Source of the DNA: Yersinia kristensenii
Lineage (GTDB): Bacteria; Pseudomonadota; Gammaproteobacteria; Enterobacterales; Enterobacteriaceae
DNA: 64,000 bases
Assembly (NCBI RefSeq): GCF_900460525.1
Contig: NZ_UHIY01000001.1
Span: 4,526,001-4,590,000, forward strand
Direction: 5' to 3'
The notes beneath the pieces are model-generated. The model saw only the letters and a program-made list of their open reading frames with translations. It was not told the DNA's origin and did no database searches. Position 1 is the first letter of the stretch; every line of letters begins with the position of its first letter. A program made the translations under genes and the position numbers. Below, in pieces: positions 16,329 through 58,665 of the stretch.

Positions 16329-16412
16329 ATGGCAAAAGAAGGCAGAGAAATGTTCGATTTGGAGAAACTGCACCTTCTACTAAATTATTGTATTTCTGAG
16401 GGTAAGCAATGA
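16329..16412 (+). CDS. possible 27-residue leader peptide before CBASS
   Basis: MAKEGREMFDLEKLHLLLNY... ends in TGA overlapping the ATG of the CD-NTase gene (ATGA at 16409-16412). The strong GAGGG that serves the CD-NTase lies inside it. Its own ribosome site is poor, so it may be a leader that couples translation, a remnant, or chance. Confidence 0.25.
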   Translation: MAKEGREMFDLEKLHLLLNYCISEGKQ

Positions 16413-19859: not shown

Positions 19860-20174
19860 CTATTGCGCCTGTAGTAATTCCAGCGCCAACTGTTTTTCCT
19901 CTGGCCGCATACGCTCAATAAAAAATTTCAGCATGCCATTCTGTAGGCCGCTGGGAACCAGTGTGTGTGAGTAAGCCAGATTCATTACCCATGTATGCCC
20001 ACACTCAAGGCGCGTGCAGCGGTAGTAAACATCAGCATAGTCGTCAGTTTTCCAGGCGGTCTTCTCAATGATGGCTTGCGCACCACAGCAATGACACCGC
20101 GCTTTTTGTTTGCGCACTATCCACCTCTTACAAGCTCGCTTCCTGTGAGGGGATTTTATCCAATTTTTTGCCAT
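19860..20174 (-). CDS. Ogr/Delta-like zinc-finger late activator
   Basis: A 104-residue protein with C27-x2-C30 and C53-x4-C58 (CHCC and CTRLEC), the zinc-binding spacing of the P2 Ogr and P4 Delta activators, followed by GHTWVMNL, equivalent to the conserved aromatic segment after the finger. Ogr-type proteins recruit RNA polymerase to late promoters through its alpha subunit. Compared with P2 Ogr (72 residues) it has a basic 25-residue N-terminal extension. Its location is unusual: it is the last gene of the leftward packaging operon, 9 bp after the portal gene, instead of lying next to the D-like gene at the far end. Confidence 0.8.
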   Translation of the reverse strand: MAKNWIKSPHRKRACKRWIVRKQKARCHCCGAQAIIEKTAWKTDDYADVYYRCTRLECGHTWVMNLAYSHTLVPSGLQNGMLKFFIERMRPEEKQLALELLQAQ

Positions 20175-20183
20175 CTTTGTGCA

Positions 20184-21218
20184 TTACTCTGCTGATTCAT
20201 CGAATCCCAGTTCAAATACCACACGCCCCAACCGCCCAATATCCGGGTCGCTATTTATCCCCTCCATAATCAACCGGCGCAACGGGATGACCTCATCTTT
20301 ATAATAGGCTTCGCGGGATTTTAGCGGGTCACCGAGTCCACCGGTATTGGCGGGAATAATACCAGCCAACCCCGGTGGAAAACGGTGGGCTACAAGCTGA
20401 TCCTGAGCACTGATATTTTTGATATTCAGAAACTCATCTTTCGTGCCACTGTCCCCAATAGGGATAACTTTCACCCCTTCTTTATCCCCGCCGGGAATAT
20501 TGATAAACATCGATTTGAAATTTCCCGCCCCTTTTGAGCCTTCGATTTTCTTGCGAAATGCCTCTTCAAGGTCTGGGGTCATATCCGGGTCAGTGGTGTA
20601 AAGGATGTACCCAAGGTGTGCGCCATTTTTGAAATACTTACGACGAAAGCGGGTGGCATCCACATTCAGCATGGCCGACTCCATGCCGTGAATATAGTCC
20701 GGCACCCCATAGACCTGCTGTTGCGGGTCATAAATGGCGACAAAAATGACCTCATCAGGCGTGTAGGTGAGGTCTTCCAGAGCAGACTGCACAATGACGG
20801 TACCGCCATCACCGTTACGCCTGAGATACAGCGACGGCAGTGTGTGGAGTCGCACCACCTGCCCCAGCCTGTTTCGCACTTTCAGTAACCCCATATCACC
20901 AAATATCAGCAGGTTGGTGACCGCAGCGGCCATCGCCGCATGAGTCATGCCGCCGCCGCCACGAAAACCCTGCACTATCATATTGACGCGCGCCCGCAGC
21001 ACTGCGCCATGGTACGGAGCAATATTGGCCAGCACCGCAAGGTCAGTTCGCTCAATGGGCGGCATATAATAGCCGTTATACCCATTCCAGAGCGTGCCGT
21101 AATAACAACCCCACGCGGCGACGGGCTCAGGATCACCAAACTCAATAAGGGTTGTCCGGCTGGAACTGGTATGCTTATTTTCAGTGAACTGGACAGGATA
21201 TTTTCTTTTCTTAGTCAT
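20184..21218 (-). CDS. portal protein (P2 gpQ-like, PBSX family)
   Basis: A 344-residue portal protein, the same length as P2 gpQ, forming the dodecameric ring at the capsid vertex through which DNA is packaged. Recognisable stretches include LANIAPYHGAVLRARVNMI and HRFPPGLAGIIPANTGGLGD. The ATG at 21218 is preferred to an in-frame TTG at 21224, and the gene overlaps the end of the terminase gene. It is cotranscribed leftward with terminase and the Ogr-like gene. Confidence 0.92.
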   Translation of the reverse strand: MTKKRKYPVQFTENKHTSSSRTTLIEFGDPEPVAAWGCYYGTLWNGYNGYYMPPIERTDLAVLANIAPYHGAVLRARVNMIVQGFRGGGGMTHAAMAAAVTNLLIFGDMGLLKVRNRLGQVVRLHTLPSLYLRRNGDGGTVIVQSALEDLTYTPDEVIFVAIYDPQQQVYGVPDYIHGMESAMLNVDATRFRRKYFKNGAHLGYILYTTDPDMTPDLEEAFRKKIEGSKGAGNFKSMFINIPGGDKEGVKVIPIGDSGTKDEFLNIKNISAQDQLVAHRFPPGLAGIIPANTGGLGDPLKSREAYYKDEVIPLRRLIMEGINSDPDIGRLGRVVFELGFDESAE

Positions 21219-22986
21219 CAGCAAAAATCCATGTCGATTTACGTTTGTTTTGGTAGTTCAGCGGCTCATTACTCAACGCGTGGGCGATAGCAAAAAACAC
21301 ATCCGCATGCCCCGTTTCCTCGCTACGCTCTGCGGTGAAAGTGACTTTATTACCGCTGTTGGTGGTTTCCTGACGAATGGCGAGGAAAGAGGCGGGAATA
21401 TCGGTAGCTTCTTCGTCCCATTCAATGCGGTTGGCGTAAATCACATCCAGCATTTTCATGACCAGACGATTTTTAGACTCCACGCTGTAGTGAATGGCCA
21501 CCGTTTCACGATGCGCAAAGCCTTGCACCAGCTCAAAGACGCCATAGCCAAGCCCTGTCACATCAATGCCGATATAGGTCATGTTGTAACGCGCCTTGAT
21601 ACTACGGATACGCTCAGCCATAAACTGGAATGACATGCTGCGCCAGTGGTGCTTTTCCAGCACCCGGAAACGTTCAGCCGCCACCAGTGGCGGTGCGACC
21701 ACCACAAAAGTGGCATTATCATTTGAGCGCGCAGGGTCAAACCCGCCCCACACCTCCCGATTACCAAACGGCATGGGTTCGTCAGGGTGAAAATCCTCCC
21801 ACGTCCGAATATCCACCCCACAACGCATCAAATCGCCGAACTTAAAGACACTCTCTTTATCATCCACAAATACGCACATAAACAGCATATTGAATGCGCT
21901 TTCGTTGTAACGTTCGCGCAGCTCATTGATATCAGCCAGATTGAAACCACCGGCAATGGCATCCTCCAGTGTCACGACATAACGCCACTGGCCATCCGGG
22001 CATTCGCGGCCACCGTCCCGCATCTCATCAAACGAGGGGAACACCACATCTTTTCGTTTGGTATCCCCTTTACGCCACTCATCACCTGACCAGAACGGAT
22101 AGCCCTGATGGGTTTTAGCTGACGGTGTGGAAAAATAGGTAATACGCCAGTGCTTATGCGTGGCCATCCCGGAAGCCACTTCATTAAGGCGACGAAAATT
22201 CGGGATCCACAGGTATTCGTCGATATAGAGGTGACCGCTGTTTGATTGTGCGGTGTTGCTGTTTGTGGCCAGAAAATAAAGCTCGGCCAAATTACTTAAT
22301 TTGATCGGATTGCCCTTGATGGGAATGCCAAATTCCGTCTGGGCTATTTTGACAATATAGGTGCGAAAGACTTCTGCCTGACGCTTGGAGGCCGATAAAA
22401 ATATCTGTGTGTCGCCACTTAATACCGCATCTTCAAATGCTTCAAATGCGAAATAATACGTGGCCCCGATCTGACGAGATTTAAGCAGATTACGCACACG
22501 CCGAAACTTATTGTTCCGCAAGTGTTGTTGGTAGCTGAAGAGTTTTTGGATAAAGGGCTCAAAACTTTCTGCCGCCAGCCCTGAGACATCATTTGCCTTG
22601 CGAGGGCGCGCTTTCTGCTCCCCTTTTTCACCTCGAACGGTGTGACCAGAACCAGACGTACCGGCCTCTGTCCGCTCAATCTCCGCCATGCGTTCAGTGT
22701 GTTTATTTCTCACCGACATCAGTTTGACGTGGTGCCCAATCAGGCGGTCGAGTTCGTCACGCTCCTCCTGAGTTTTAAGGTCACGCTCCAGCAGCACTTT
22801 ACAGCGCCGGGCTATCACCTCCTCCACGCCTTCCGTGCTGAGCTGCGTGTACCATTCAAATTTGGTCGCCCAATAATAAATAATGCGCGGACTGTTTAAT
22901 CCGAGTTTTTTCTGTATCTCTTTGGGGGTATGCCTTTTCAGGTACAGCGATTTTGCAGCGGCAATCACCTCATCTGAATAAGCCAT
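21211..22986 (-). CDS. terminase large subunit ATPase (P2 gpP-like)
   Basis: A 591-residue packaging motor matching P2 gpP in length. An N-terminal helix-turn-helix (about 1-60, KRHTPKEIQKKLGLNSPRII) is followed by the ATPase core with a variant Walker A (LLKSRQIGATYYFAFEAFED) and Walker B HLYIDEYLW. The C-terminal nuclease domain (about 400-560) has acidic residues in GGFDPARSNDNA and GIDVTGLGYG. It is the first gene of the leftward late operon, divergent from the scaffold gene across the nested dyad. Confidence 0.94.
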   Translation of the reverse strand: MAYSDEVIAAAKSLYLKRHTPKEIQKKLGLNSPRIIYYWATKFEWYTQLSTEGVEEVIARRCKVLLERDLKTQEERDELDRLIGHHVKLMSVRNKHTERMAEIERTEAGTSGSGHTVRGEKGEQKARPRKANDVSGLAAESFEPFIQKLFSYQQHLRNNKFRRVRNLLKSRQIGATYYFAFEAFEDAVLSGDTQIFLSASKRQAEVFRTYIVKIAQTEFGIPIKGNPIKLSNLAELYFLATNSNTAQSNSGHLYIDEYLWIPNFRRLNEVASGMATHKHWRITYFSTPSAKTHQGYPFWSGDEWRKGDTKRKDVVFPSFDEMRDGGRECPDGQWRYVVTLEDAIAGGFNLADINELRERYNESAFNMLFMCVFVDDKESVFKFGDLMRCGVDIRTWEDFHPDEPMPFGNREVWGGFDPARSNDNATFVVVAPPLVAAERFRVLEKHHWRSMSFQFMAERIRSIKARYNMTYIGIDVTGLGYGVFELVQGFAHRETVAIHYSVESKNRLVMKMLDVIYANRIEWDEEATDIPASFLAIRQETTNSGNKVTFTAERSEETGHADVFFAIAHALSNEPLNYQNKRKSTWIFADD

Positions 22987-23053
22987 AAATAACCTCTACT
23001 GTATGATTCCCCTCTCATTCTCAGCAAAGGTTTGAGTAAAAACGAACGGCAGA

Positions 23054-23099
23054 TTTCGGCTATTTTCGGATATTGCCCGATATCCGAAAGTACCCGAAA
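23054..23099. promoter_or_regulatory. nested dyad between divergent late operons
   Basis: Four 6-bp half-sites are arranged symmetrically around 23076.5: TTTCGG at 23054-23059 and 23064-23069, CCGAAA at 23084-23089 and 23094-23099. The inner pair extends to a 10-bp perfect inverted repeat, TTTCGGATAT and ATATCCGAAA, with spacer TGCCCG. Each direct pair is spaced exactly 10 bp, one helical turn. It lies in the 184-bp gap between the divergent terminase and scaffold genes. Binding by the Ogr-like activator is the natural inference. Possible AT-rich -10 segments are CGTTTTTAT near 23115 on the right and CGTTTTTAC near 23044 on the minus strand. Confidence 0.7.
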
Positions 23100-23170
23100 C
23101 CCAACGGATGACGCCGTTTTTATCCCGCCGTTAAATAACGCCAGATGTTTTTATCAGTGGATTAATTCAG

Positions 23171-24046
23171 ATGGCGAAACAGAAAACAGACTGGGTGGTG
23201 GTGGCGACTTCGGGGCCCACCATTGATGGTCGGGAAATTGACCCAAAGTGGCTGACAGATGCTGCCGAGGTTTACAACCCGGATGAACGTACCGCCATGC
23301 TCTGGCCGTTTCATGCCGATTCCGCGTGGCGCGCCTTCACTAACAACTACGGTCTCATTGATGCCCTGAAAGCAGAGAAAGTGGGTGACAAAGTGCAGCT
23401 TAAAGCCCGCCTGATCCCCAATCGTTTTCTGCTGGAAGCCAACAAGGCCGGGCAAAAACTCTTTACCTCCATTGAAGTGAAGGAAAATTACATGGGCACA
23501 GGCAAATTCTTTTTGTCTGGCATTGCCGTGACTGATACACCCGCCAGCATTAACACGACTCGCCTGCAATTTTCGCAAGGCGAAGTCCTCCATATGGGCA
23601 ATACGGAAGAGCTGAATTTCACCCTGCAATCTGACGACGAACAGGCAAAACGCAGATTTTTCTCTCGTTTCTTTTCATCTGCTCCCCACGAACAGGAAAA
23701 CGACAACAGCATGAACGAAAAACAATTTAACCAGTTGATGGATGCCATCAACCAAACCAGCGAACGTCTGGACAAAATGGAAGAAAAAGTCGCGCAGTTC
23801 AGTGAACAGAAAGAACCGGAAAGCGCTGGCGACAACACGCCGGAAAGCAACACCACTGACAATAGCGATAAGGACACTAAAACCTTCACGCTGACGACGG
23901 AACAAGGCGAAAAACTGTTTTCCACGATAAACGCCATTGCTGGCAAGGTCGACAAAATGGAAGCGGCGTTCACTGAACTGACTCAGGATGCCACACAACT
24001 CCCCGGCAACAACCCGGCGGGCGGCGAAACCTTTAACTTGGTGTAA
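23171..24046 (+). CDS. capsid scaffolding protein (P2 gpO-like)
   Basis: A 291-residue protein of the gpO family, an internal scaffold and self-cleaving serine protease for capsid assembly. The N-terminal protease domain (about 1-140) contains WPFHADSAWR and LFTSIEVKENYMGTGKFFL, the latter carrying a serine of the kind used in gpO catalysis. Residues about 180-290 form the helical scaffold with NQTSERLDKMEEKVAQF coiled coil. It is the first gene of the long rightward late operon. Confidence 0.9.
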   Translation: MAKQKTDWVVVATSGPTIDGREIDPKWLTDAAEVYNPDERTAMLWPFHADSAWRAFTNNYGLIDALKAEKVGDKVQLKARLIPNRFLLEANKAGQKLFTSIEVKENYMGTGKFFLSGIAVTDTPASINTTRLQFSQGEVLHMGNTEELNFTLQSDDEQAKRRFFSRFFSSAPHEQENDNSMNEKQFNQLMDAINQTSERLDKMEEKVAQFSEQKEPESAGDNTPESNTTDNSDKDTKTFTLTTEQGEKLFSTINAIAGKVDKMEAAFTELTQDATQLPGNNPAGGETFNLV

Positions 24047-24061
24047 TGAGGGGAGTACACA

Positions 24062-25150
24062 ATGAACATGACACCAGAAGCGCAGAAGCTGGTTAATCAA
24101 TATATCGGCGCACTACAAAAAGCATTCAGTGACTGCCAGGTATCTCAAGACAGGTATTACTCGCTGACAGAACCCAAAACCACCGCCCTGCGCAAAGCGA
24201 TGCTGGAAAGCGTGGAACTGCTGGGGTTCCTGAGCTGCCTTGACGTTCCCCACCCGCAGGGGCAGGTCGTTATCGTGGGCGAGTCCACGCTGCGTACTGG
24301 TCGCGTCAAAAGCGGACGCTTTACAAAGGGCTCCGGCATCAGTGGTAACGAATTTAAACTGGCAGAAACCGACTCCTGTTGCGTGATCACCTGGGAACAA
24401 CTTGCCATCTGGGCAAATGCGGGCAGCCCACAGGAATTCTTTAACCTGATGAACTCCGCCGCTGTCACCAACTTTGCGCTGGACATGCTGCGCATCGGCT
24501 TCAACGGTAAGAAAGCGGCAGAAAACTCTGACCCGGAAACAAACCCGAACGGCGAAGATGTCAATATCGGCTGGCATGAAATCGCCAGACAGTGGGGCGA
24601 ACAGGAAGGTAACACCTCCCGCATTCTGACGGACGCCGTCACCTTGGGTGAAGGGGGGGATTATCTGGGACTGGATGCCATGGCCGCCGACCTGATCCGC
24701 ACCTGCATTCCGGTGCAGTACCACAATGACCCGCGTCTTACCGTACTGGTGGGTGCTGACCTTGTGGCCGCTGAAGAGCTGCGCCTCTACAACAAGGAAG
24801 ACAGACCCACCGAGAAGGTGGCCGCACAGCTACTAACCAAAAATATCGCGGGTCGCAAAGCCATTATTCCACCGTTCATGCCGGGCAAGCGCATGGTGGT
24901 GACGATGCTGCCCAATCTGCAAATTCTGACGCTGAAAGGCTCTCGTCGCCGCAAGGCCGAGGATGTGGGCGACCGCAAACAGTTCGAAAACAGCTACTGG
25001 CGCTATGAAGGCTATGCCTTGGGTGATCCGAATCTGTACGCTGCCGTAGATGAGTCTGCGGTCACTATTGCTACCGACAAAACGAAAGCAACACCAAAAA
25101 ATGCCCCCGCGCAGAAAGCTGCGCCAAAAAATGACGCAGAACAGGAATAA
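24062..25150 (+). CDS. major capsid protein (P2 gpN-like)
   Basis: A 362-residue HK97-fold capsid protein close in length to P2 gpN (357). Family stretches visible are TPEAQKLVNQYIGALQKAF at the N terminus, PHPQGQVVIVGESTLRTGR, and NSYWRYEGYALGDPNLYAAV near the C terminus. The C-terminal tail is alanine and lysine rich and disordered. It follows the scaffold gene by 15 bp with a GGGGAG ribosome site; the scaffold protease would trim it during maturation. Confidence 0.95.
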   Translation: MNMTPEAQKLVNQYIGALQKAFSDCQVSQDRYYSLTEPKTTALRKAMLESVELLGFLSCLDVPHPQGQVVIVGESTLRTGRVKSGRFTKGSGISGNEFKLAETDSCCVITWEQLAIWANAGSPQEFFNLMNSAAVTNFALDMLRIGFNGKKAAENSDPETNPNGEDVNIGWHEIARQWGEQEGNTSRILTDAVTLGEGGDYLGLDAMAADLIRTCIPVQYHNDPRLTVLVGADLVAAEELRLYNKEDRPTEKVAAQLLTKNIAGRKAIIPPFMPGKRMVVTMLPNLQILTLKGSRRRKAEDVGDRKQFENSYWRYEGYALGDPNLYAAVDESAVTIATDKTKATPKNAPAQKAAPKNDAEQE

Positions 25151-25153
25151 ATC

Positions 25154-25861
25154 ATGACGCCCATGCAACGCCAGCAAGCCCGTCAACTCGCCGAGCGACG
25201 TGCCGCCCAATTGGCTGAGGCACCGGTGGCGGGGACAACGCAAGAGAGCCAGCACATCAAACTGCTGGCGCTGGGTAACGACCTGAAACAGCTGCATGGC
25301 ATGGAGCTGATAGCCGACAAACAGGCATTCAAACGAGAAGTGTTACTCCCGCGCTGGATGCCCCACGCACAGGCCTATCTGGATGGCGAGCGCGTGTATC
25401 AGAACCCCGTGTTGGTGTACTGCATCATCTGGCTGCTTGATACCGGCCAGTTTGAGCTGGCGTTGCAGTGGGCGGATATCGCGATTGCTCAGGGGCAAAA
25501 AACCCCCGATGGCTTTAAAAGCGAACTGCAGTCGTTTGTTGCCCACTTCATTCTGGACTGGGCGGAAACCGAAGCGGAGCGCGGACACAGCACAGAGCCC
25601 TACTTCTCACAACTGTTTGAAAAGGTACGGGATACGTGGCGACTTAACGAACGACTGACCGCGCGTTACTACCGTTTTGCGGGCTTACAACTGCTGCGCG
25701 GCGAAGATGGCAAGGCGCTGGCCAGCGCGGTGAATGACCCGGATAAGCTGATGCAGGCCGACCAGTTACTGGAGCGGGCCGAATGGCTGCACCCGAAAAT
25801 TCAGGTCAAAACACAGCGTCAGCGTATTGCGGCACGACTGCGCGCCTTGCAGGCAGAGTAA
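25154..25861 (+). CDS. terminase small subunit (P2 gpM-like)
   Basis: A 235-residue protein of the gpM family, which recognises and cuts cos together with the ATPase subunit. Its N-terminal basic helical stretch (MQRQQARQLAERRAAQLAEA) and the central VLVYCIIWLLDTGQFELALQ are typical. It starts 3 bp after the capsid gene stop, in the standard O-N-M-L order. P2 gpM is 247 residues, so the size fits. Confidence 0.88.
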   Translation: MTPMQRQQARQLAERRAAQLAEAPVAGTTQESQHIKLLALGNDLKQLHGMELIADKQAFKREVLLPRWMPHAQAYLDGERVYQNPVLVYCIIWLLDTGQFELALQWADIAIAQGQKTPDGFKSELQSFVAHFILDWAETEAERGHSTEPYFSQLFEKVRDTWRLNERLTARYYRFAGLQLLRGEDGKALASAVNDPDKLMQADQLLERAEWLHPKIQVKTQRQRIAARLRALQAE

Positions 25862-25962
25862 CAGAACACCAACAACCGGGTGGGCGTGGTGGAGGCATAC
25901 CGGCAATAACGCCGCGATGGCTACAGAAACCAGACAGCCCACCTTTCTCTGGCGGAATAACG

Positions 25963-26457
25963 ATGTTTGACGGAAAAACCCTTCACTACCAGCAGGCCAT
26001 CATTCAGAACGATGGGTTCTGGCCGGATATTGACGCGGGCGACTTTGAAAAAAATCGCACCATTCCTGCGGTAACGTCACACGATACGGTACTGAATGCG
26101 CTGCTGTGTGCTATCGCAGAAATCAATGTCGAGCTGGCATCACGACAGGCCTATTTTCGGGAGCAAGGCTACCTGTCGGCCAATGATATTCCGGGTTATC
26201 GCGTATTGCGCCCCACACCACGCAGCGAAAGCGAACACGATATGCCCACACACGGCCATATTGCCGCGCTGTACATCAAAGCCGTTTACGCCCGCGCCAA
26301 AGCAGACCTGATACCGGAAGCCGCCAGCGTGGGCAGACGAGATACCCAGCCCCAAATAGAAGCTGCCGAAAGCCGCCGCAGCTTGCTGGCCGAGTCTGCC
26401 ATGGCAATACGTGCATTAATGATGCGTCCGCGCGCCTCTGTTTGCCTGATTGACTGA
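25963..26457 (+). CDS. head completion protein (P2 gpL-like)
   Basis: A 164-residue protein matching gpL, which caps the filled head and prepares it for tail joining. The motif SHDTVLNALLCAIAEINVEL lies near residue 40 and IEAAESRRSLLAESAMAIRA near the C terminus. The ATG at 25963 is well within a longer open frame that begins at 25783; the upstream part has no family similarity and overlaps the previous gene. Order after gpM is as in P2. Confidence 0.88.
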   Translation: MFDGKTLHYQQAIIQNDGFWPDIDAGDFEKNRTIPAVTSHDTVLNALLCAIAEINVELASRQAYFREQGYLSANDIPGYRVLRPTPRSESEHDMPTHGHIAALYIKAVYARAKADLIPEAASVGRRDTQPQIEAAESRRSLLAESAMAIRALMMRPRASVCLID

Positions 26458-26467
26458 GGTGAGCATC

Positions 26468-26941
26468 GTGACACAACTGTCTCAACTGACTGACTTTATT
26501 GAGGCCAATCTGCCACAACGCGCACTGGTACCGTTCACCAGCGATATGGATGATATTTCGCTGCTCCCCTGCATCAAGGTGCTCGGACACGGCCAATTGT
26601 GTACGCAGGTCAGAAAATATACCGCCTTTTTAAGGTGGGATGCGTGGCCATACCGGGAGTTAGATCCGGATTTACTTTTCTCACTGGTGGAAAGCTGGCT
26701 GGCAGACAGCGCAGGCGAACTACGCGAAAAGCTGGCCCCCGATGCCCCTGCTATTGATGTTGAGGTGGATGACGAAAACGCGGTGGCATGGGTTGAAATC
26801 AGCCTCCCGTTGGTTGACCCCATCGTGCTGATAGAGGACGAAAACGGCCCTATCCCTCGTGGCGGCAAACGCTACCGGCTGGGTAAACCCGATATCTGGG
26901 TCGCGCAGGCGCACCGTATTCACTTAGGAGTAGCCTCATGA
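26468..26941 (+). CDS. tail completion protein (P2 gpR-like)
   Basis: A 157-residue protein of the gpR family that finishes the tail end for head attachment. The likely start is GTG 26468 with GAGGTG at 26456-26461; an in-frame TTG at 26450 overlapping the previous stop is less well placed. QLTDFIEANLP at the N terminus and DVEVDDENAVAWVEISLPL in the middle fit the family. ATGA overlap with the next gene. Confidence 0.82.
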   Translation: MTQLSQLTDFIEANLPQRALVPFTSDMDDISLLPCIKVLGHGQLCTQVRKYTAFLRWDAWPYRELDPDLLFSLVESWLADSAGELREKLAPDAPAIDVEVDDENAVAWVEISLPLVDPIVLIEDENGPIPRGGKRYRLGKPDIWVAQAHRIHLGVAS

Positions 26942-27660
26942 ACCACCCCTGTATCCGTGAAGCCCAGCTCCAGCAAGTGCTGCGCGCGGTCAGGGATGCC
27001 GAGCTCACCCCGACCAAAGCACAGAAGTTGCTGGTTCGCATAGCAAAATATGGCCTTATTCCGGCAGCAAAACGCCATGTGAAGGCGCAACAAACGCCCG
27101 AAGGCGTCAAATGGGCTCCACGTAAAAAAACCGGAAAACAAAAGGGAAAGCGCAAAGCGCAGATGCTCGTCGGCATGCCCAAGCTACTAGCCATTAAAAA
27201 CGACAAAGCCAACAAAAGCGTCAGGCTTTATTTTAAGTCTGGCAACTATGCCACCCGCACACATGGCGGCCTCGTGGCATGGGCGCAACAACACGGCACG
27301 CGCATCACCATGAAAGCCAGCAGCCTGCAACGGCGGTATCGCAGTGACGCCTTGCGTAAAAAGCCCGCCACATCAGGACAGGCAGAGCGCCTGCTCTCAC
27401 TGGGGTTTCGCGCCCCTATTGGGGCGGTAAGCAAGAAAACCGGACACAGAGGGCGCAGAAAACCTTCCAAAAAATGGATTATCGAACACATGAACATGGC
27501 ACAGGCCGGGCTGGTGATTGACATCCTGAAAGGCAAGAGCAAGCGCAGCACATGGGAAATCGTGCTCCCTTCCCGCGCTTTTTTGGGGGCCAGTGGTGAG
27601 GAGTTCGCCCGCATTCTGGAGACCCAGCTCCGCAACCTGAACTATGGCACTAATACGTAA
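26938..27660 (+). CDS. tail completion/virion morphogenesis protein (P2 gpS-like)
   Basis: A 240-residue protein, longer than P2 gpS (150). The N-terminal TPTKAQKLLVRIAKYGLIPA is typical of the phage virion morphogenesis family, and the C terminus WEIVLPSRAFLGASGEEFAR matches the expected LPSRxFLG motif. The central basic region carries an extra 80 or so residues rich in K and R. Together with the gpR-like protein it completes the tail for joining. It begins within the end of gpR. Confidence 0.85.
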   Translation: MNHPCIREAQLQQVLRAVRDAELTPTKAQKLLVRIAKYGLIPAAKRHVKAQQTPEGVKWAPRKKTGKQKGKRKAQMLVGMPKLLAIKNDKANKSVRLYFKSGNYATRTHGGLVAWAQQHGTRITMKASSLQRRYRSDALRKKPATSGQAERLLSLGFRAPIGAVSKKTGHRGRRKPSKKWIIEHMNMAQAGLVIDILKGKSKRSTWEIVLPSRAFLGASGEEFARILETQLRNLNYGTNT

Positions 27661-27681
27661 CAAAAACATCAGGAGGTCGCC

Positions 27682-28836
27682 ATGACATGGCCGTCCGTCA
27701 CTATCAATCAATACAACACGTACAGCAGTACCCCCAAGAGCATTGAAAATACGCTGCTGTTTGTGGGTATGGCACATGCCAGTCACGGCAAGGTGCTCCC
27801 CATCAATGCCAACAGCAATCTGGATACCCTGCTGGGCAGTGAAGACAGCGCCCTGAAAAGCAACATTCAAGCCGCCCTGCTGAACGCGGGACAAAACGCA
27901 TTCTGCTACGCCTGCGTATTACCCAAAACCCCCAAGGGAGCCAAAGACAGCCCTCAGGCTGCCGCCCCCGCATGGGTGGAAGCCATCACTCGCGCACAGG
28001 AAACCCTGTCGGTTGAAGGGGTGGTACTGGTCGAACCGGTCAGCTCGCAGGATGACATTCTCGCCGCCCAAGCCCTGCGCCAGACCCTCATTAATCAGCG
28101 GCAGCGCTGGGTGTGGTTTCTGCTGGCGGTGGCCGGTAACACCGGCACACAGACATGGGCGGAATACATTCAAACCCTGACCGAACTGCAAAAAGGGATA
28201 GTCGCCCCACAGGTGATGCTGGTGCCGGAGGTGTTTGGTTATGACATCGGCGTGCTGGCTGGCCGCCTGTGTAATGCGGCTGTCACCATTGCCGACAGCC
28301 CCGCCCGCGTGGCCACCGGTGCGCTCGTCGGGCTAAAAAGCAGCGAAAAGCCACAGGACAGTGCCAAACAACCGATAGATTTGGCCACCCTGCAAGCCCT
28401 CGCCACCGTCCGTTACAGCGTCCCGATGTGGTACGCCGACTATGACGGTCTGTACTGGGCTGATGGCGTCACTCTTGAGGTAGATGGCGGTGACTATAAC
28501 GTCATTGAGCATGTGCGGGTGGCCGACAAGGTGGCGCGCCGCGTGCGCCTGATGGCCATTCCCAAGATTGCCAACCGGACACTCAACAGCACACCGGGCA
28601 GCATTGCCGCGCACGAAACACTGTTTGCCGAACCGCTGCGCACCATGGCGAAGTCCACCCAGATTAACGGGGTCACCTTTCCCGGCGAAGTCAAACCGCC
28701 GAAAAAGGAGGATATCACCATCACCTGGCAGGACACCAAAACCGTCAGCATCAACATTATCGTGCGTCCGTATGCCTGCCCGAAAACCATCAGGGTGGGC
28801 ATTCAGTTAGACCACGCACTGGAGGATAACGCATGA
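27682..28836 (+). CDS. contractile tail sheath protein (DUF2586 type)
   Basis: A 384-residue protein of the DUF2586 type found in HP1/K139-like phages in the position of the sheath. The N terminus MTWPSVTINQYNTYSSTPKS and C-terminal KTVSINIIVRPYACPKTIRV are characteristic. An AGGAGG ribosome site precedes the ATG. As in other contractile sheaths the C-terminal half should contain the conserved interlocking domain. It overlaps the tube gene by ATGA, and the two would be made in matched amounts. Confidence 0.82.
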   Translation: MTWPSVTINQYNTYSSTPKSIENTLLFVGMAHASHGKVLPINANSNLDTLLGSEDSALKSNIQAALLNAGQNAFCYACVLPKTPKGAKDSPQAAAPAWVEAITRAQETLSVEGVVLVEPVSSQDDILAAQALRQTLINQRQRWVWFLLAVAGNTGTQTWAEYIQTLTELQKGIVAPQVMLVPEVFGYDIGVLAGRLCNAAVTIADSPARVATGALVGLKSSEKPQDSAKQPIDLATLQALATVRYSVPMWYADYDGLYWADGVTLEVDGGDYNVIEHVRVADKVARRVRLMAIPKIANRTLNSTPGSIAAHETLFAEPLRTMAKSTQINGVTFPGEVKPPKKEDITITWQDTKTVSINIIVRPYACPKTIRVGIQLDHALEDNA

Positions 28837-29288
28837 CATCACGTGTAAACGGCATGGCATTTGATGTGTTTGTCGGTGGACTGGATATCCACGTCAAAAG
28901 CATCTCGCTCGACATCAGTGATGAAAGCACCGTCGCCAAAACACGCGGCATTCCCGACGGCAAACTGCGGGGGCCGGTCAGTGGCGAGGGCGAAATCGAG
29001 ATGACCACCCGCAGCTTCAACCAGTTAAGCGAAATCGCCGCACGGGCAGGCTCATGGCGCAACCTGCCCACCATGGATTTTGTCTTTTATGCCAACACCG
29101 GCAGCGAAGAAATCAAGGTGGAAGCTTTTGGTTGTGAGTTGGTGCTCTCCAACCTGTTGAGCATCGATACCGACAGCGCCGACAACACTACCCACAAACT
29201 CAAATATTTTGTGGCCAGCCCCGACTTTGTGCGCATTAACGGGGTACGGGTGCTCTCCGAAGATGATGTGCGCGGCCTGATGGGGTGA
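28833..29288 (+). CDS. tail tube protein (DUF2597 type)
   Basis: A 151-residue strand-rich protein directly after the sheath, where the inner tube protein is expected. It starts MTSRVNGMAFDVFVGGLDIH and contains RGIPDGKLRGPVSGEGEIEM, a pattern of the DUF2597 family of HP1-like phages, functionally equal to P2 gpFII. No membrane segment. The identity as tube is inferred from order and family. Confidence 0.8.
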   Translation: MTSRVNGMAFDVFVGGLDIHVKSISLDISDESTVAKTRGIPDGKLRGPVSGEGEIEMTTRSFNQLSEIAARAGSWRNLPTMDFVFYANTGSEEIKVEAFGCELVLSNLLSIDTDSADNTTHKLKYFVASPDFVRINGVRVLSEDDVRGLMG

Positions 29289-29291
29289 CCG

Positions 29292-29591
29292 ATGCTTCAC
29301 GACCACGAACGCACCCTTATCACACTGGCGCTGGTCGGGGCAGTCGCTGCCATGAGCAAGGCACTGGCCAGTGCCGAGCCACTGACACTGCGCCTGTTTA
29401 TCGGGCGCACACTGGCCGGTAGCGTGCTCTCCATATCGGCCGCCGCATTACTGGTGCAGTTTCCCGACCTGTCACCACTGGCCGTGGCCGGTGTCGGGGC
29501 CACACTGGGCATTGCAGGTTACCAGTGCGTCGAAATGTGCCTGCGCCGTTTTTTGCAAAAATACAGTAAAGGGCCGTCACGCCATGAATAA
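29292..29591 (+). CDS. holin
   Basis: A 99-residue membrane protein. Predicted spans lie at about 9-27 (ITLALVGAVAAMSKALA), 36-58 (GRTLAGSVLSISAAALLVQF) and 61-80 (LSPLAVAGVGATLGIAGY), followed by a basic C terminus, the class I holin layout. It resembles LydA-type phage holins. It sits immediately before the endolysin and starts three bases after the tube gene stop. Timing of lysis would depend on its accumulation in the inner membrane. Confidence 0.8.
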   Translation: MLHDHERTLITLALVGAVAAMSKALASAEPLTLRLFIGRTLAGSVLSISAAALLVQFPDLSPLAVAGVGATLGIAGYQCVEMCLRRFLQKYSKGPSRHE

Positions 29592-29673
29592 ACATCAACT
29601 TCATCGTCTGTTACGCCTTGCCTACTGGCTATGGCAATGCATCAGCAAAAACAGAAAAAAAGGAGGCTTCTGA
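29584..29673 (+). CDS. 29-residue peptide between holin and endolysin
   Basis: MNKHQLHRLLRLAYWLWQCI... then a basic tail KNRKKGG. It overlaps the holin end and its TGA overlaps the endolysin ATG (TGATG at 29671-29675), while the AGGAGG for the endolysin lies inside it. An amphipathic helix with tryptophans could associate with membrane. It may be a coupling leader or a holin modulator; no relative is recognised. Confidence 0.35.
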   Translation: MNKHQLHRLLRLAYWLWQCISKNRKKGGF

Positions 29674-30011
29674 TGAAACTGTCCACCAAACAACAACAGT
29701 TCACCACTATGGTGGCGCGTCTTATCACTTACGCCAGTGAGCAGGGCTACGGCCTCACTTTTGGCGAGGCCTGGCGCACACCGGAGCAGGCCAGACTCAA
29801 CGCACAAAAAGGCACCGGCATTGCCAACAGCCTGCACTGCCAGCGACTGGCCGTCGATTTTAATCTGTTTATTGACGGGGAATACCAGACCCGCACCGAA
29901 GCCTATCGCCCGCTGGGCGAGTTCTGGGAATCCATTGGCGGCGCATGGGGCGGGCGCTTCAAACGCCCGGACGGCAACCACTTCAGTCTGGCGCATAACG
30001 GCGTTCGCTAA
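29673..30011 (+). CDS. endolysin, M15-type peptidase
   Basis: A 112-residue zinc peptidase of the VanY/M15 (L-alanyl-D-glutamate endopeptidase-like) family, which cuts peptide cross-links of the cell wall. The zinc ligands are visible in SLHCQRLAVDFNLF (His and Asp, the SxHxxxxAxD motif) and GNHFSL (second His), with the general base within WGGRFKRPDGNHF. No signal peptide, so release depends on the holin. P2 and HP1 use glycosidase lysozymes here, so this is a swapped module. The AGGAGG ribosome site is excellent. Confidence 0.85.
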   Translation: MKLSTKQQQFTTMVARLITYASEQGYGLTFGEAWRTPEQARLNAQKGTGIANSLHCQRLAVDFNLFIDGEYQTRTEAYRPLGEFWESIGGAWGGRFKRPDGNHFSLAHNGVR

Positions 30012-30047
30012 CCCCATATTGTTAACCCATTAACCGGAGACATCATC

Positions 30048-30329
30048 ATGAGCGAGAAAAACACCCAGACCGATACCCTTATCACGCTGCAAATCGGGGA
30101 GCATGAGTTGAGCTTTGCCCCCACTACCAAAGACTACAACGACCTGCAAAACGACTTTATGCCGGACAACAAAATCGCGCCGTTAAAAAACTACCTGCGC
30201 CGTATTGTCATCAAAGAGCACCGCGAATTACTCAACGAACTGCTGGAAAAACCGGGTATGCCTGCCAACATTGCCACAGCGGTCAACAATGAGTTTGTGC
30301 CGGATGTGGAGATCATCGTAAAAAAATAA
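30048..30329 (+). CDS. tail assembly chaperone, short form
   Basis: A 93-residue protein (MSEKNTQTDTLITLQIGEHE...) of the phage tail assembly chaperone class, directly upstream of the tape measure gene. Its last codons are GTA AAA AAA TAA, so a slippery heptamer abuts the stop. It would coat the tape measure during tail assembly, like gpE of P2 and gpG of lambda. See the frameshift product for the extended form. Confidence 0.82.
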   Translation: MSEKNTQTDTLITLQIGEHELSFAPTTKDYNDLQNDFMPDNKIAPLKNYLRRIVIKEHRELLNELLEKPGMPANIATAVNNEFVPDVEIIVKK

Positions 30330-30520
30330 AAACGCATCTGGGTGCCATTGCCCGCAATGAGTTCACCCAGTTGCTGATATTGCGACGCCACTACCTACCG
30401 GGCGAAGACGACTCCCCGCAGTCTCTGGCCTGTGCGGCGTGGCTGGATAATCGTTACTGGGAAAACATGAGCGCGGCCATCAACAACGGCATTGTCCGCG
30501 CCTTTAAAGGTTCCACATGA
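30048..30520 (+). CDS. tail assembly chaperone, -1 frameshift fusion
   Basis: At A_AAA_AAA (30320-30326), immediately before the TAA of the short form, a -1 shift would read ATA AAA ACG and continue for 64 codons (KTHLGAIARNEFTQLLILRR... to AFKGST) to TGA 30518-30520, which overlaps the tape measure ATG at 30517. The extension has no start codon of its own near its beginning and has protein-like composition with DNRYWENMSAAIN. This is the G/GT and E/E+E' arrangement seen in lambda and P2. The product would be 157 residues. The slippery site and open frame are seen; frameshifting is inferred from the strong precedent. Confidence 0.85.
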
Positions 30521-32649
30521 CCCAACAGCGCCTTGAACTGCTCCTCGAACTCACCGACAAACTGACTAAACCGCTGCGTGCCGCCGGTCGGCAGGTGCAG
30601 TCTTACGCCAACACCAGCCGGGCAGCCTTTAAAAGTATTGCTGTAGGGGGCGCAGGTTTATGGGCCGTGGGTGCAGCCATCAAGGGGGCGCTGCAACCCG
30701 CCATCGAGATGGACAGAGCACTGGGCGAGGTCAAATCGTTGGGGGTAGCCGAGGCAGGGCTGCGAAAACTCCAGCACGCCGCCATTGACTTCACCATGGA
30801 ATATGGTGGTGCAGCGGAAGACTTTGTGCGGGCTTCCTATGATATCCAGTCGGCTATTGCCGGTCTGACAGATAACGAGCTGGCCCGATTCACCACCGCC
30901 TCCGCCACAGTCGCGGCCGCCACCAAATCCAGCAGCCAGACCATCACCGCCTATATGGGCACCCTGTACGGCATCTTTAAAGATCAAGCCGATGCCATGG
31001 GTAAAGGAAAGTGGGTTGAGCAACTTGCCGGCCAGACCGCTACCGCCGTGCAGATGTTCAAGACCACCGGCGACCAGATGTCAGCCGCCTTTACCACGCT
31101 GGGTGCGAGTGCTAAATCGGCGGGCATCGACGCTGCCGAGCAGTTTGCCGTGCTAGGACAGTTACAAGCCACCATGAGCGGCAGTGAAGCCGGTACCAAG
31201 TACAAATCCTTCCTTGCTTCGGTAGGGAAAGCCCAGAAAACGCTGGGGCTGAATTTTGTCAACAAAGACGGCACCATGAAAAGCGTCACCGAGATCATGC
31301 ACCTCATTCAGGGCAAATTTGGCGACCTCTCCAAAGTGGCAGACTCTGACCTGCTGAAAAAAGCGTTTGGCTCAGATGAAGCTGTTGCCATGATCAAACT
31401 GCTGAATGCTGATATTGGTGGGCTGAAAAAGAATATCGCCACTCTGGGTAAGGTCGGAGGCATGGATAAAGCTGTTGAAATGGCGAAAGCCATGGCCGAC
31501 CCATGGGAGCAGGCGCTCGCCGTCATTAACGGCATCCGTATTGAGATTGGTACACAGCTACTGCCGGTACTCTACCCCTTCATTAACCAGACGAATGAAG
31601 GAGGCAAGTCCTTTGTCGAATGGTTACGCCTTTATCCCAATATCACCCGCGCCATAGGTTTACTGGCCGGGGCGTTGATTGCGCTGGCCGCCGTGGGGGC
31701 CATCACCAATATCGTGGTGGGGGTGGCTAAATTTGTCTGGGCGGGTCTCAGGCTGGCATGGCTTGCAGCCACCGCCCCTTTGCGTCTGCTTATTCTGTTA
31801 AAACGCACCCTGATTTTTACCATAACGGTATTAAATGCCGCCGTCAGGCTGACGCGCGCTCTCTATCTGGCACTGGCTATCGCCATGAATGCCCTGAATA
31901 TCAAGGCCAAACTGGAGCTGGTGCTGTTAGGCCTGAGACGGGCCGGATTGTGGTTATACAGCGCCGCACTGGCCGCCGCAGCCATCGCAACCAAAATCTA
32001 CGCCGCCGCCACCACCGGTGCCGCCGTGGCCACGCAACTTCTGTTCAGCCCTATTACACTCATCATTCTGGCACTGGCGGCACTGGGGGTAGGGATTTAC
32101 TACCTCATCACACGCTGGAATGAAATCAAGACCGCCCTGATGGATACCGCCGCCTTTAAGTGGGTGGCCGGTGTCATTGGTCAGCTGGGTGTCTGGCTGG
32201 GCGAGGTCTGGCAGGGGATCCGTCAGGGGTGGGCAAACACGGTGAATTATTTCTCCACCCACTCGCCGCTGGAGATTTTTAAAGATCTCGTCAATCTGAT
32301 TGGCGGGTTATTTAACCAGTTATGGTCTTCCGTCGCGGGCATGTTCAACAGCATGCTGAAATGGATGATAGAAAAAATCAATCTGATACCGGGGATCAGC
32401 ATTGACGCACCGGATATTCCCGCTCCCACAACACTGGCATCTGGTGAAAACACCTCACCAAAACAAAGCGTTCCGCTGCTCACCGGTGGCAACACCCTCA
32501 CTGCCGGACAGGGTGGCCTTGCCACCCAGATACAGAACAACAGCGAACGCAAAACCACGATTGATAACTCAACACACAACCTCACGGTGAATATTCAGGA
32601 TGCGTCCCCCACCAACCTGCAGGAATGGATGGAGCTCAATGCCTACTGA
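30517..32649 (+). CDS. tail tape measure protein
   Basis: A 710-residue protein that sets tail length. The N-terminal 330 residues carry the phage tape measure domain (KLTKPLRAAGRQVQ, then AIDFTMEYGGAAEDFVRASY and FGSDEAVAMIKLLN). Residues about 370-540 are strongly hydrophobic with several spans (RAIGLLAGALIALAAVGAI, ITLIILALAALGVGIYYLI), which would form the membrane-penetrating part. The C terminus is polar with Q and N. P2 gpT is 815 residues, so a slightly shorter tail is implied. Confidence 0.93.
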   Translation: MTQQRLELLLELTDKLTKPLRAAGRQVQSYANTSRAAFKSIAVGGAGLWAVGAAIKGALQPAIEMDRALGEVKSLGVAEAGLRKLQHAAIDFTMEYGGAAEDFVRASYDIQSAIAGLTDNELARFTTASATVAAATKSSSQTITAYMGTLYGIFKDQADAMGKGKWVEQLAGQTATAVQMFKTTGDQMSAAFTTLGASAKSAGIDAAEQFAVLGQLQATMSGSEAGTKYKSFLASVGKAQKTLGLNFVNKDGTMKSVTEIMHLIQGKFGDLSKVADSDLLKKAFGSDEAVAMIKLLNADIGGLKKNIATLGKVGGMDKAVEMAKAMADPWEQALAVINGIRIEIGTQLLPVLYPFINQTNEGGKSFVEWLRLYPNITRAIGLLAGALIALAAVGAITNIVVGVAKFVWAGLRLAWLAATAPLRLLILLKRTLIFTITVLNAAVRLTRALYLALAIAMNALNIKAKLELVLLGLRRAGLWLYSAALAAAAIATKIYAAATTGAAVATQLLFSPITLIILALAALGVGIYYLITRWNEIKTALMDTAAFKWVAGVIGQLGVWLGEVWQGIRQGWANTVNYFSTHSPLEIFKDLVNLIGGLFNQLWSSVAGMFNSMLKWMIEKINLIPGISIDAPDIPAPTTLASGENTSPKQSVPLLTGGNTLTAGQGGLATQIQNNSERKTTIDNSTHNLTVNIQDASPTNLQEWMELNAY

Positions 32650-32992
32650 TAAACCACTTTATATCGACCTGCTTATCACCGGGCGTAACTTCACCCTCAA
32701 CAGCGCCAACGAGCCGGTGATGTGCAACAACCGCCAGAGCATTGCGCAGGACTGCCAGCACGCCATTATCGAAAGCGGGCTGACCACACGCCTGCTGGCG
32801 GAAAAAAGCCCCACATTGCGCGCCGACATCATGATGCAAATGGTGCTGCTTATCGAAGATGACGAACGCATTACACCGGGTACCGTCAGTGTTACCGAAG
32901 AGTCGCCCCTCTCCGGTCGTCTACTGATACGGGCTGACACCGAAGATTTTCACGACGCCCCGCTCACTTTTGAGGTTTTACTGCATGATTAA
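32639..32992 (+). CDS. baseplate protein, DUF2590 type (gpW/gp25-like role)
   Basis: A 117-residue protein, MPTDKPLYIDLLITGRNFTL..., of the DUF2590 family seen in HP1-like phages between tape measure and gpJ-like genes. Position and size suggest the baseplate wedge role of gpW/gp25. The ATG at 32639 lies inside the end of the tape measure gene, after GGATGGAG, and the stop overlaps the next gene. The role is inferred mainly from order. Confidence 0.75.
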   Translation: MPTDKPLYIDLLITGRNFTLNSANEPVMCNNRQSIAQDCQHAIIESGLTTRLLAEKSPTLRADIMMQMVLLIEDDERITPGTVSVTEESPLSGRLLIRADTEDFHDAPLTFEVLLHD

Positions 32993-34169
32993 CGGCAAAC
33001 CACAAGTCGATTATGAACGCATTCTGGCCGACCACGGTATGCCTGTCACACAGGAACAGGCACGCGCCGAATTTGATCTCGTCGCCAAAGACGAGGGCAT
33101 TATCACCAACACATCCCGCATGTCACCGTTCTGGCGACTGGTGACCACCATCACCACCACCCCGGTCATGTGGTTAAAGGATGCTCTCGTCAAGGTGGTC
33201 ATGAAAAACCTGTTTCTGGCCAGTGCCGAAGGGGTATTTGTGGATGTGTTTGCCTGGGCGGTCAACCTGCAACGCAAGGCGGCCACACCAGCAGGCGGCA
33301 CCATTCGTTTTACCAAACAGGATATTGCACTGGCCGTCACCGTACCGGCAGGTACCCAAATCCAGACCGAACGTATCAATGGCGTGATTTATACCCTGAC
33401 CACCCTGAGCGATACGCTCATCCCGGCAGGTGTATTGAGCCAGAGCATTGCCGTGACCGCCGAGCATGCCGGTGCAGGCTTTAATCTCGCGCCGGGCTAT
33501 TACCGCATTCTGCCCACCGCCATTGAGGGGATTGCCTCGGTGGAAAATGACGAGAACTGGCTGGCCACGCCGGGTGCCAATGAAGAGAGTGACGACGAAC
33601 TGCGCGATCGTATTCGCAACCAGTTCAATCTGGCCGGAGCCTATCATATCGACGCCGTCTACCGTGGTCTGATGGCCCGCGTGGCTGGGATAAGTGCCGA
33701 CCGCATCTATTTTGAACACGATGCACCACGCGGCCCCGGCACCGCCAATGCCTATATTCTGCTGGACACCGGCATTGCTTCCGCCCCCTTTGTGGACACC
33801 ATCAATGACCACATCATGGTGCAGGGGTACCACGGCCATGGCGATGATTTGCGCGCCTTTGCCCTGCCGGAAACCCGTCATGATCTGACGGTGACCCTCT
33901 ACCTTTATGCCAGCCTGAACCTGAACGACGAGGACACCCTGACCCTGTGCCGTAACGTGGGCAATCTGGTGCGCTGCGCCTTTCGGGAAAATAGTGATTA
34001 CGAGGTACAAAAAACATGGCCCTACAGCCGCTTCAGCATGTCCCGTTTGGGGGAGGAAATTCACCAACACTTTCATGAGGTGGAGTCGGTGATTTTTTCC
34101 CTCTCCGACATTCAAAGTGGGCTGGCTGTGCCACGTCTTAACCAGTTGCGTGTGGAGGTGGCACCATGA
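32985..34169 (+). CDS. baseplate J-like protein
   Basis: A 394-residue protein of the baseplate J family (P2 gpJ), part of the baseplate wedge. Family stretches are GVFVDVFAWAVNLQRKAATP, AVTVPAGTQIQTERINGVIY and ANEESDDELRDRIRNQFNLA. It is longer than P2 gpJ (302), which is usual for the larger J proteins of other myophages. The ATG at 32985 overlaps the DUF2590 stop; an upstream in-frame TTG is not needed. Confidence 0.9.
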   Translation: MINGKPQVDYERILADHGMPVTQEQARAEFDLVAKDEGIITNTSRMSPFWRLVTTITTTPVMWLKDALVKVVMKNLFLASAEGVFVDVFAWAVNLQRKAATPAGGTIRFTKQDIALAVTVPAGTQIQTERINGVIYTLTTLSDTLIPAGVLSQSIAVTAEHAGAGFNLAPGYYRILPTAIEGIASVENDENWLATPGANEESDDELRDRIRNQFNLAGAYHIDAVYRGLMARVAGISADRIYFEHDAPRGPGTANAYILLDTGIASAPFVDTINDHIMVQGYHGHGDDLRAFALPETRHDLTVTLYLYASLNLNDEDTLTLCRNVGNLVRCAFRENSDYEVQKTWPYSRFSMSRLGEEIHQHFHEVESVIFSLSDIQSGLAVPRLNQLRVEVAP

Positions 34170-34804
34170 ACCTCCCCAAACTCCCGGATATCACGCTGCC
34201 CACATGGATGAACGAGGGGGAACCCCTGACACTGGCTCACGCCTCCCACCATTACTGGGAAAGGGTCTACCGCTGGCTGACATGGCCACTGGCACAGATT
34301 GACGTGGACACCTGCGCCGAGTCACTGCTCAACCTGCTGGCCTATCAGCGCAATATCACCCGATTTAAGGGCGAACCCATCGCCCTCTTTCGCCTGCGCG
34401 TGAAATACGCCTTTATCAATGCACAGGATGCCGGGGAACGGGCAGGTTTTGAGCGCATCTTTAAGCGTCTCAATATCGGGGATGTCCAGACACTGGAGCG
34501 TCAACTGCAACATGACTGGGATGTCATTTCGTTACGCATCAATGATGCCCAGCTCAGTGAAAACAACGCCCTGATGATGCAGCTTATCCGCCAGTATGGT
34601 CGTACCTGCCGCCGCTATTTTTTTCAGGTGGTGAACCAGAAGACTCTGCATGTCACGGCGGGGGAGTTTGGCGGTGAGTACCGCTATCACACAGCCCTAA
34701 CTACCCTGACACCCGACACAATTTATCTCAATGCTCACTTGCAAGGCGGGCATTATGACGCTTCGGTGGAACATTACACGCTACAAGACGAGAACCGCCC
34801 ATGA
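34166..34804 (+). CDS. baseplate tail protein I-like
   Basis: A 212-residue protein of the P2 gpI family, linking the baseplate wedge to the fibres. ESLLNLLAYQRNITRFKGEP and FRLRVKYAFINAQDAGERAG are typical. It starts ATGA-overlapped with the J-like gene and its stop overlaps the first fibre gene (ATGA at 34801). P2 gpI is 176 residues. Confidence 0.85.
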   Translation: MNLPKLPDITLPTWMNEGEPLTLAHASHHYWERVYRWLTWPLAQIDVDTCAESLLNLLAYQRNITRFKGEPIALFRLRVKYAFINAQDAGERAGFERIFKRLNIGDVQTLERQLQHDWDVISLRINDAQLSENNALMMQLIRQYGRTCRRYFFQVVNQKTLHVTAGEFGGEYRYHTALTTLTPDTIYLNAHLQGGHYDASVEHYTLQDENRP

Positions 34805-36483: not shown

Positions 36484-36485
36484 CC

Positions 36486-37064
36486 ATGACTTTTAAAATG
36501 TCTGACAAAGCGCAGATTGTCACTGTCTTTAATTATCACTATGAAACCAAAGAGTTTACCGGAGAAACGGATGAATATATTGCTCCTTATACTGGTATTC
36601 CCGGCTCCAGCACCCTTATAGCCCCTTTGCCGACTAAAGCAGGGTATGCGGTTGTGTTTAATGAAGACGCCCAACAGTGGGAATATACCGAAGATTATCG
36701 CGGTACAGATGCATACGACACACAGACGGGGTATTCACGCCCGGTCATTGCTCTGGGGCCATTACCTGAAGGTTTTACATCACTGGCACCAACCAGCCAA
36801 TTTGACCGCTGGGACGGCTCACAGTGGGTGAAAGACGAAAACGCCGAGAAAAAGCACCATCTGGCCGAAGCAGAGCAGAAGAAACGGGCTTTGCTCAACG
36901 AAGCAAGCGCCAAAATCCAAACCCTTCAGGACAGTATTGAGCTGGGGCTGGGCACGGAAACCACCGAGGCCAAATTACTGGTATGGCGCAGATATCGCGT
37001 TTTGCTTGACCGGGTGGACATCTCGACAGCCCCCAACATCATGTGGCTAGCAAAACCCGAATAA
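36486..37064 (+). CDS. tail fibre assembly protein 1 (Tfa/gpG-like)
   Basis: A 192-residue chaperone for trimerisation of the fibre before it. LIAPLPTKAGYAVVFNEDAQ and WEYTEDYRGTDAYDTQTGYS belong to the caudovirus tail fibre assembly (Tfa) domain; the helical C terminus contains KRALLNEASAKIQTLQDSIE. It is specific to the preceding fibre tip in known systems. It begins two bases after the fibre stop. Confidence 0.9.
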   Translation: MTFKMSDKAQIVTVFNYHYETKEFTGETDEYIAPYTGIPGSSTLIAPLPTKAGYAVVFNEDAQQWEYTEDYRGTDAYDTQTGYSRPVIALGPLPEGFTSLAPTSQFDRWDGSQWVKDENAEKKHHLAEAEQKKRALLNEASAKIQTLQDSIELGLGTETTEAKLLVWRRYRVLLDRVDISTAPNIMWLAKPE

Positions 37065-37095
37065 ATAACCATCAGACCATTTGAGACAACGATCC

Positions 37096-38817: not shown

Positions 38818-38823
38818 GGTCAA

Positions 38824-45557: not shown

Positions 45558-45593
45558 ATTTTTCTCCATGAAATTCTTACCAACCCCTTATAT

Positions 45594-58573: not shown

Positions 58574-58665
58574 CACATCAAAAACTAACAATAAAAATAC
58601 TGCTGTATTCGAATAAAATTCATTGCCGGGAATATAAGTCATAGACCTCGTTCCCGGCGAATTAT

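Follow-up and report, generated by a model that had tools for sequence, protein, structure and literature searches.

In phage P2, the late operons are transcribed from four late promoters and need Ogr, a C4 zinc-finger activator (PMC3931495). Two of these promoters share a site: the P2 record (NC_001895) annotates a single 'activator binding site; pO, pP promoters' at 3057-3087, between starts at 3016 and 3127. In Stenotrophomonas phage Smp131, PP' is placed at 4398-4381 and PO' at 4381-4398 (PMC3931495), that is, one site read on both strands, and the record of Mannheimia phage PHL101 labels part of the same gap as bound by a 'possible activator protein', promoters lying next to it. An earlier note on the DNA analysed here had taken a single site serving two promoters as a departure from P2. 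This claim has to be withdrawn, since the P2 record, the Smp131 coordinates and the PHL101 record make the shared site a known layout.

The locus studied here lies in a 64-kb stretch of Yersinia kristensenii DNA (hereafter the window). The ccm genes of the window (45500-50300) show that the host is not E. coli, their best megablast piece in E. coli genomes being 74.7% identical over 23%. The locus resembles P2 in its divergent flanking genes, which are the same, and in having one activator site, annotated in P2 and proposed here, in the middle of the gap. The sequence of the site is different: the P2 gap carries TGT-N12-ACA at 5/6 only, whereas the window has TTCGG/CCGAA, in four half-sites at a 10-bp phase. 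The exact TGT-N12-ACA is absent from the window gap, which agrees with the earlier note on both points. PHL101, which is on the P2 side of the family (via the P2 terminase, 55.6%), also has TGT-N12-ACA at 5/6 in its gap, and the Smp131 site (PMC3931495) is TGT-N12-ACA-like and accompanied by two further late promoters, unlike the window. The distance from the centre of the site to the start is ~66 bp here, counted from the predicted -10s, versus 55-56 bp in the P2 record. A set of ten P2-side gaps, that of P2 included, has the exact TGT-N12-ACA in 3/10 and did not establish a common -10 offset, with gap ends estimated in three unannotated records, so that an 'extra helical turn' relative to P2 is unproven; a further 80 viral contigs, whose terminases match that of P2 at 99-100% identity, were left out of the comparison. 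Finally, P2 has four late promoters whereas one divergent pair was found here, with ogr sitting behind portal, and the reliance of all late genes on one site is an apparent difference from P2.

Among closer relatives, Vibrio phage K139 has the putative promoters P16 and P17 in the same gap, together with the same TTCGGATAT-N6-ATATCCGAA dyad. The annotated -10 of P17 (15557-15562) is 2 bp from the one predicted in this work (15555-15560), that of P16 (15488-15493) falls on the dyad edge, and the inspected stretch of the record marks no activator site. Yersinia phage vB_YenM_324, Cronobacter phage ESSI-2 and Haemophilus phage HP1 have their genes in the same order, and their gaps also contain an inverted repeat, with half-site variants; in HP1, GGAT/ATCC repeats were seen by eye at a 10-bp phase, more than two of them on one side. 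Only the K139 record, of the 14 for named phages, marks promoters in the gap (as putative), and none marks an activator site, that of PV94 being unannotated. The literature searches, which covered few subscription papers, listed no description of a late site of the TTCGG/CCGAA kind, and the location of ogr in K139 and Smhb1 is already in print (PMC8537503). What is new here is the half-site sequence, the phased array, the mirror geometry and the breadth across the clade.

The dyad lies mid-gap in the 184 bp (22987-23170) between the leftward terminase gene and the rightward gpO scaffold gene (Table 1). Gene positions and Pfam matches bore out the earlier placement of the dyad between a terminase-portal-ogr operon and a scaffold-capsid-tail operon, with ogr behind portal. 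By Pfam, the rightward run also encodes minor tail and tail-fibre proteins; ten of its later proteins were scanned, and two of them had no match. We hold with good confidence that the region is a P2-like prophage of the HP1/K139/ESSI-2 type, that the gap is its pP/pO equivalent and that the dyad is the site of its Ogr-like activator.

Table 1. Features of the late-promoter region, in window coordinates; promoter elements are predictions.
Feature	Position	Strand	Comment
ogr-like late activator	19860..20117	-	PF04606; reassigned GTG start, 85 aa
Portal protein (gpQ-like)	20184..21224	-	Pfam Phage_portal
Terminase ATPase subunit (gpP-like)	21211..22986	-	Pfam Terminase_6N/6C/Terminase_5; first gene of the leftward late operon
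Predicted -10 GAGAAT, leftward terminase-portal-ogr promoter	23017..23022	-	4/6 to TATAAT; start near 23010
Four-half-site dyad TTTCGG-N4-TTTCGG-N14-CCGAAA-N4-CCGAAA	23054..23099	.	Centre 23076.5; 46 bp; proposed Ogr activator site
Outer left half-site	23054..23059	+	10 bp from the inner one
Inner pair	23064..23089	.	Core TTCGG-N14-CCGAA at 23065-23088
Outer right half-site	23094..23099	-	Paired with the inner CCGAAA at 23084-23089
Predicted -35-like ATGACG, rightward promoter	23108..23113	+	17 bp upstream of the -10
Predicted -10 TTAAAT, rightward promoter	23131..23136	+	4/6 to TATAAT; start near 23143
gpO capsid scaffold/protease	23171..24046	+	Pfam Phage_GPO; opens the rightward late operon
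Rest of the rightward run	24062..42355	+	Capsid, small terminase, holin, peptidase, tail, baseplate

Inspection of the sequence placed TTTCGG at 23054-23059 and 23064-23069 and CCGAAA at 23084-23089 and 23094-23099. The four half-sites are mirror-symmetric about 23076.5 and stand 10 bp apart within each pair, exactly as the earlier note had described, and the 10-bp inverted repeat TTTCGGATAT/ATATCCGAAA that it had reported is present at the middle of the dyad. No further hexamer of more than two letters occurs in such a four-copy layout (pair spacing 8-12, centre 0-30) in the 64-kb window, 20 mononucleotide shuffles of the window gave none, and a second exact dyad was not found in the rightward run (24062..42355). 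With up to 3 mismatches allowed, the four-half-site pattern was found at 2 places in the 4.73-Mb genome versus 0 for a reversed control. The second array occupies the terminase-scaffold gap of another P2-like prophage ~260 kb away (L161, host genome C1:4280000-4292000); it has 2 mismatches, and this prophage carries its own ogr, 42% identical to that of the window. The lone TTCGG-N14-CCGAA was found at 7 places in the host genome versus 17 for its reversed control. The inner dyad by itself is therefore not rare, and the weight falls on the four-fold array and its conservation.

To examine this conservation, 201 loci were gathered from terminase-led searches (best 80 matches of each), Ogr-led loci, the 14 named phages, the second prophage and the window. 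Seven had no usable gap; the remaining 194 had both genes, always divergent, and gave 175 distinct gaps that were grouped into 100 clusters. The Ogr-led search of viral contigs contributed 25 loci, and the exact TTCGG-N13/14-CCGAA was present in the gap of all 20 Ogr-led loci that have both flanking genes and whose Ogr is 70% or more identical. The earlier note had named absence of the dyad from collinear prophages with the same ogr as a refutation; these 20 loci therefore do not refute its reading. In the cluster set, which derives in part from best-80 matches, the motif was present at 9 or more of its 10 bases in 72/100 clusters, with spacing 14 in 43 and spacing 13 in 29, without overlap, the mononucleotide-shuffled controls giving 0.15 and 0.6 per 100, respectively. 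Other spacings (4-12 and 15-22) showed it in at most 8 clusters (shuffles 0.1-0.6 per 100), and peaks at 23 (31 clusters) and 24 (41 clusters) correspond to the outer-to-inner distances. The inner dyad was exact in 50/100 clusters and 127/194 loci. In 66/100 clusters an exact half-site had another one 10 bp away on its own strand, versus 0.4 expected. The outer half-sites matched at 4/5 or better in 56 of the 72 anchored clusters on the left (chance 1.2% per 5-mer) and in 42 of the 72 on the right, both being present in 38. The exact TGT-N12-ACA was not enriched, being found in 3/100 of the relatives' gaps versus 4.6 expected by shuffling. The 28 clusters below the 9/10 threshold were not anchored, and in L040 and some other gaps the dyad was not recognisable though the Ogr gene was present.

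When the viral contig collection was scanned for the inner dyad, 33 stretches were retrieved, some of them from the same contigs as the Ogr-led loci, and 32 lay between divergent terminase and gpO starts. The P-O gaps bearing the dyad belong to phages of Enterobacterales, Vibrio, Aeromonas and Pasteurellaceae hosts. Among 392 genomes of the host's family, the strict inner dyad was found in the window's own genome only and therefore gives, at that strictness, no hint of satellites using the site; the gap used as a nucleotide query against phage records gave no match. Judging by its conservation, the dyad is functional. Variant arrays were also observed: a Rodentibacter locus (L136) has apparently three half-sites per side, and the two half-site pairs of L224 stand 10 bp further apart. 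The one scan match beside neither terminase nor gpO, at L042:5706-5729, is probably due to chance.

The 72 clusters were anchored on the inner half-sites only and read outward, offsets 5-74 being scored for TATAAT; on the left side 67/72 were long enough to score. The best offset was 42 nt from the end of the inner half-site on both sides (72 right arms, 67 left arms), with a mean score of 3.96 of 6 versus 1.8 (sd 0.5) over all offsets. Both predicted -10s of the window begin 54.5 bp from the dyad centre. In the right arm, a -35-like nTG(A/C) lies 17 bp upstream of the -10 (columns T 0.81 and G 0.92, 72 clusters), and the TTGACA score is also maximal at this position; a clear -35-like counterpart was not found in the left arm of the anchored clusters. 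When the centre shortens from N14 to N13, the right-hand elements move 1 nt along with the proximal half-site, which ties each arm to the promoter on its side. The near-fixed centre spacing suggests that the two arms may also interact. These patterns point to mirror-image divergent promoters flanking the dyad, with predicted -10 elements and starts.

The window was left out of a 53-column model trained on both arms (71 right, 66 left), which was then run over its 64 kb. The two window arms ranked first and second at 23.6 and 22.7 bits, the next match scoring 15.2. They also ranked first and second with the right-arm model alone, with a close third (10.4 after 10.9), and the left-arm model alone gave them 25.6 and 20.8, the third match, 19.0 at 58612 (-), lying outside the prophage run. 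On this ranking, a further promoter of this type elsewhere in the prophage is not well supported. In five related loci from clusters of the training set, the top match was an arm of the P-O gap in 5/5 and the second was the other arm in 4/5, the other arm of L022 scoring 7.8.

The Ogr-like protein of the window matches PF04606 with 45.7 bits (cut-off 26.3) and has a C-x2-C-x22-C-x4-C zinc finger. In 179/194 loci, portal is followed on its own strand by an Ogr gene, whose reading frame opens 2712-5041 nt downstream of the terminase start (median 2814), and C-x2-C-x20-24-C-x4-C is present in 161 of these 179 matches. For the alignment, 59 of 76 Ogr references were used, with rows chosen for the C4 pattern, and the invariance of the four cysteines there is therefore partly by construction. 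Ogr was not found in 15/194 loci, 11 of which extend less than 4 kb beyond the terminase start, while L120, L122, L127 and L151 extend at least 4 kb. Counted by cluster, two anchored ones have more than 4 kb of downstream sequence and no Ogr match. The earlier note had described the window protein as longer than usual, which it is probably not: the codon pattern and the Shine-Dalgarno sequence favor an internal GTG start giving 85 aa. The 104-aa version was rejected as an over-long start, the first 26 codons showing 4 synonymous and 13 nonsynonymous differences from L001 versus 26 and 11 in the remainder. GGGAGG precedes an internal ATG in L001, L002, L014, L016 and L017, AAGAGG precedes the GTG at 20117 in the window, and in L022 a stop closes the ogr reading frame shortly upstream of the internal ATG.

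From the sequence patterns above we infer Ogr binding, activation, start sites and feedback alike. The Ogr-like C4 zinc-finger protein of the phage would use the dyad as its activator site, with each arm acting as a direct repeat that presents two half-sites on one helix face and keeps a constant spacing to the -10 on its side. One bound array could then recruit RNA polymerase to two mirror-image promoters, the rightward transcript providing scaffold, capsid, lysis and tail genes and the leftward one terminase, portal and ogr, which would create a positive feedback. Since a single symmetric site lies between the two late operons and one of these encodes the activator, the positive-feedback late switch of the earlier note is still the best reading; only its claim that the single site departs from P2 falls away. 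In its fullest form, to which we give slightly less than even odds, a whole branch of P2-like phages would depend for its late transcription entirely on one bidirectional promoter with mirror symmetry, built on a phased TTCGG array read by an Ogr of new specificity, with arms coupled through the 13/14-bp centre, the operons and the activator firing together at matched strength, and the array able to lengthen by whole helical turns.

An alternative arrangement would give each promoter an independent direct-repeat site, the palindrome reflecting back-to-back packing and no coupled switch. The spacing fixed to the proximal half-site, with its 1-nt shift of the right-hand elements between N14 and N13, agrees with such independence, as do the more distant pairs of L224, but a centre spacing almost confined to 13 and 14 would be needless for independent sites; we regard this as unlikely, its odds overlapping with those of the preferred reading, of which it is a sub-question. 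It is more doubtful still that the dyad binds another regulator controlling both promoters, be it a protein of the host or another one of the phage, for example a repressor, with Ogr acting elsewhere or through protein contacts only. Two results speak for it and against the Ogr reading: a few gaps lack a recognisable dyad despite an Ogr gene, and in a partial Mantel test over 67 loci no co-variation of Ogr and dyad was detected once terminase distance was accounted for (partial r 0.08, p = 0.125). However, the dyad occupies the position of P2's annotated activator site, the site recurs in P-O gaps of phages from all four host groups, with an Ogr gene in 179/194 loci, and the four-half-site array is confined in the host genome to two prophage gaps, unlike a host regulon.

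A DNA-structure or packaging element (cruciform, terminator, or cos/terminase recognition) unrelated to activation would account for a long inverted repeat adjoining terminase. We consider it very improbable, as the dyad lies upstream of both predicted starts, -10 boxes flank it at equal, fixed distances, and cosL of P2 is at the end of the P2 record, outside the P-O gap. A chance palindrome could be argued from the 7 lone inner dyads of the genome and the 17 of the reversed control; with four phased half-sites unique in the window and found at two places in the genome, and a motif recurring in 72/100 clusters, conservation rules it out for practical purposes.

If the dyad is the Ogr site, it offers a candidate code for late promoters throughout a broad branch of the temperate phages, that of HP1, K139, ESSI-2 and relatives. 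Set beside P2's TGT-N12-ACA site, it would make the DNA specificity of the Ogr/Delta zinc fingers testable by activator/site swaps, and it would be a case of one activator site held equidistant from two promoters over long evolution.

A search of PDB sequences with E up to 1 gave six matches for Ogr but no convincing relative, the best being an RPB9 zinc ribbon (E 0.027). Two Ogr-like genes of other phages are unusual. In Salinivibrio phage SMHB1 (L041:6384-6821) the protein has 145 aa and two tandem Ogr-like finger units, each opening C-x-C, an organization that we take to resemble P4 delta. In HP1, an unannotated reading frame after portal (L034 near 6356) matches the Ogr profile (E 2e-16) without the full four-cysteine pattern. 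The window also carries, between the replication gene and ogr, a two-gene CBASS-like unit (16409-17946) formed of an oligonucleotide cyclase and a Cap15-type two-TM effector; adjoining it is an FRG-domain protein (18413-19771) that matches the PADLOC candidate defence family PDC-S15.
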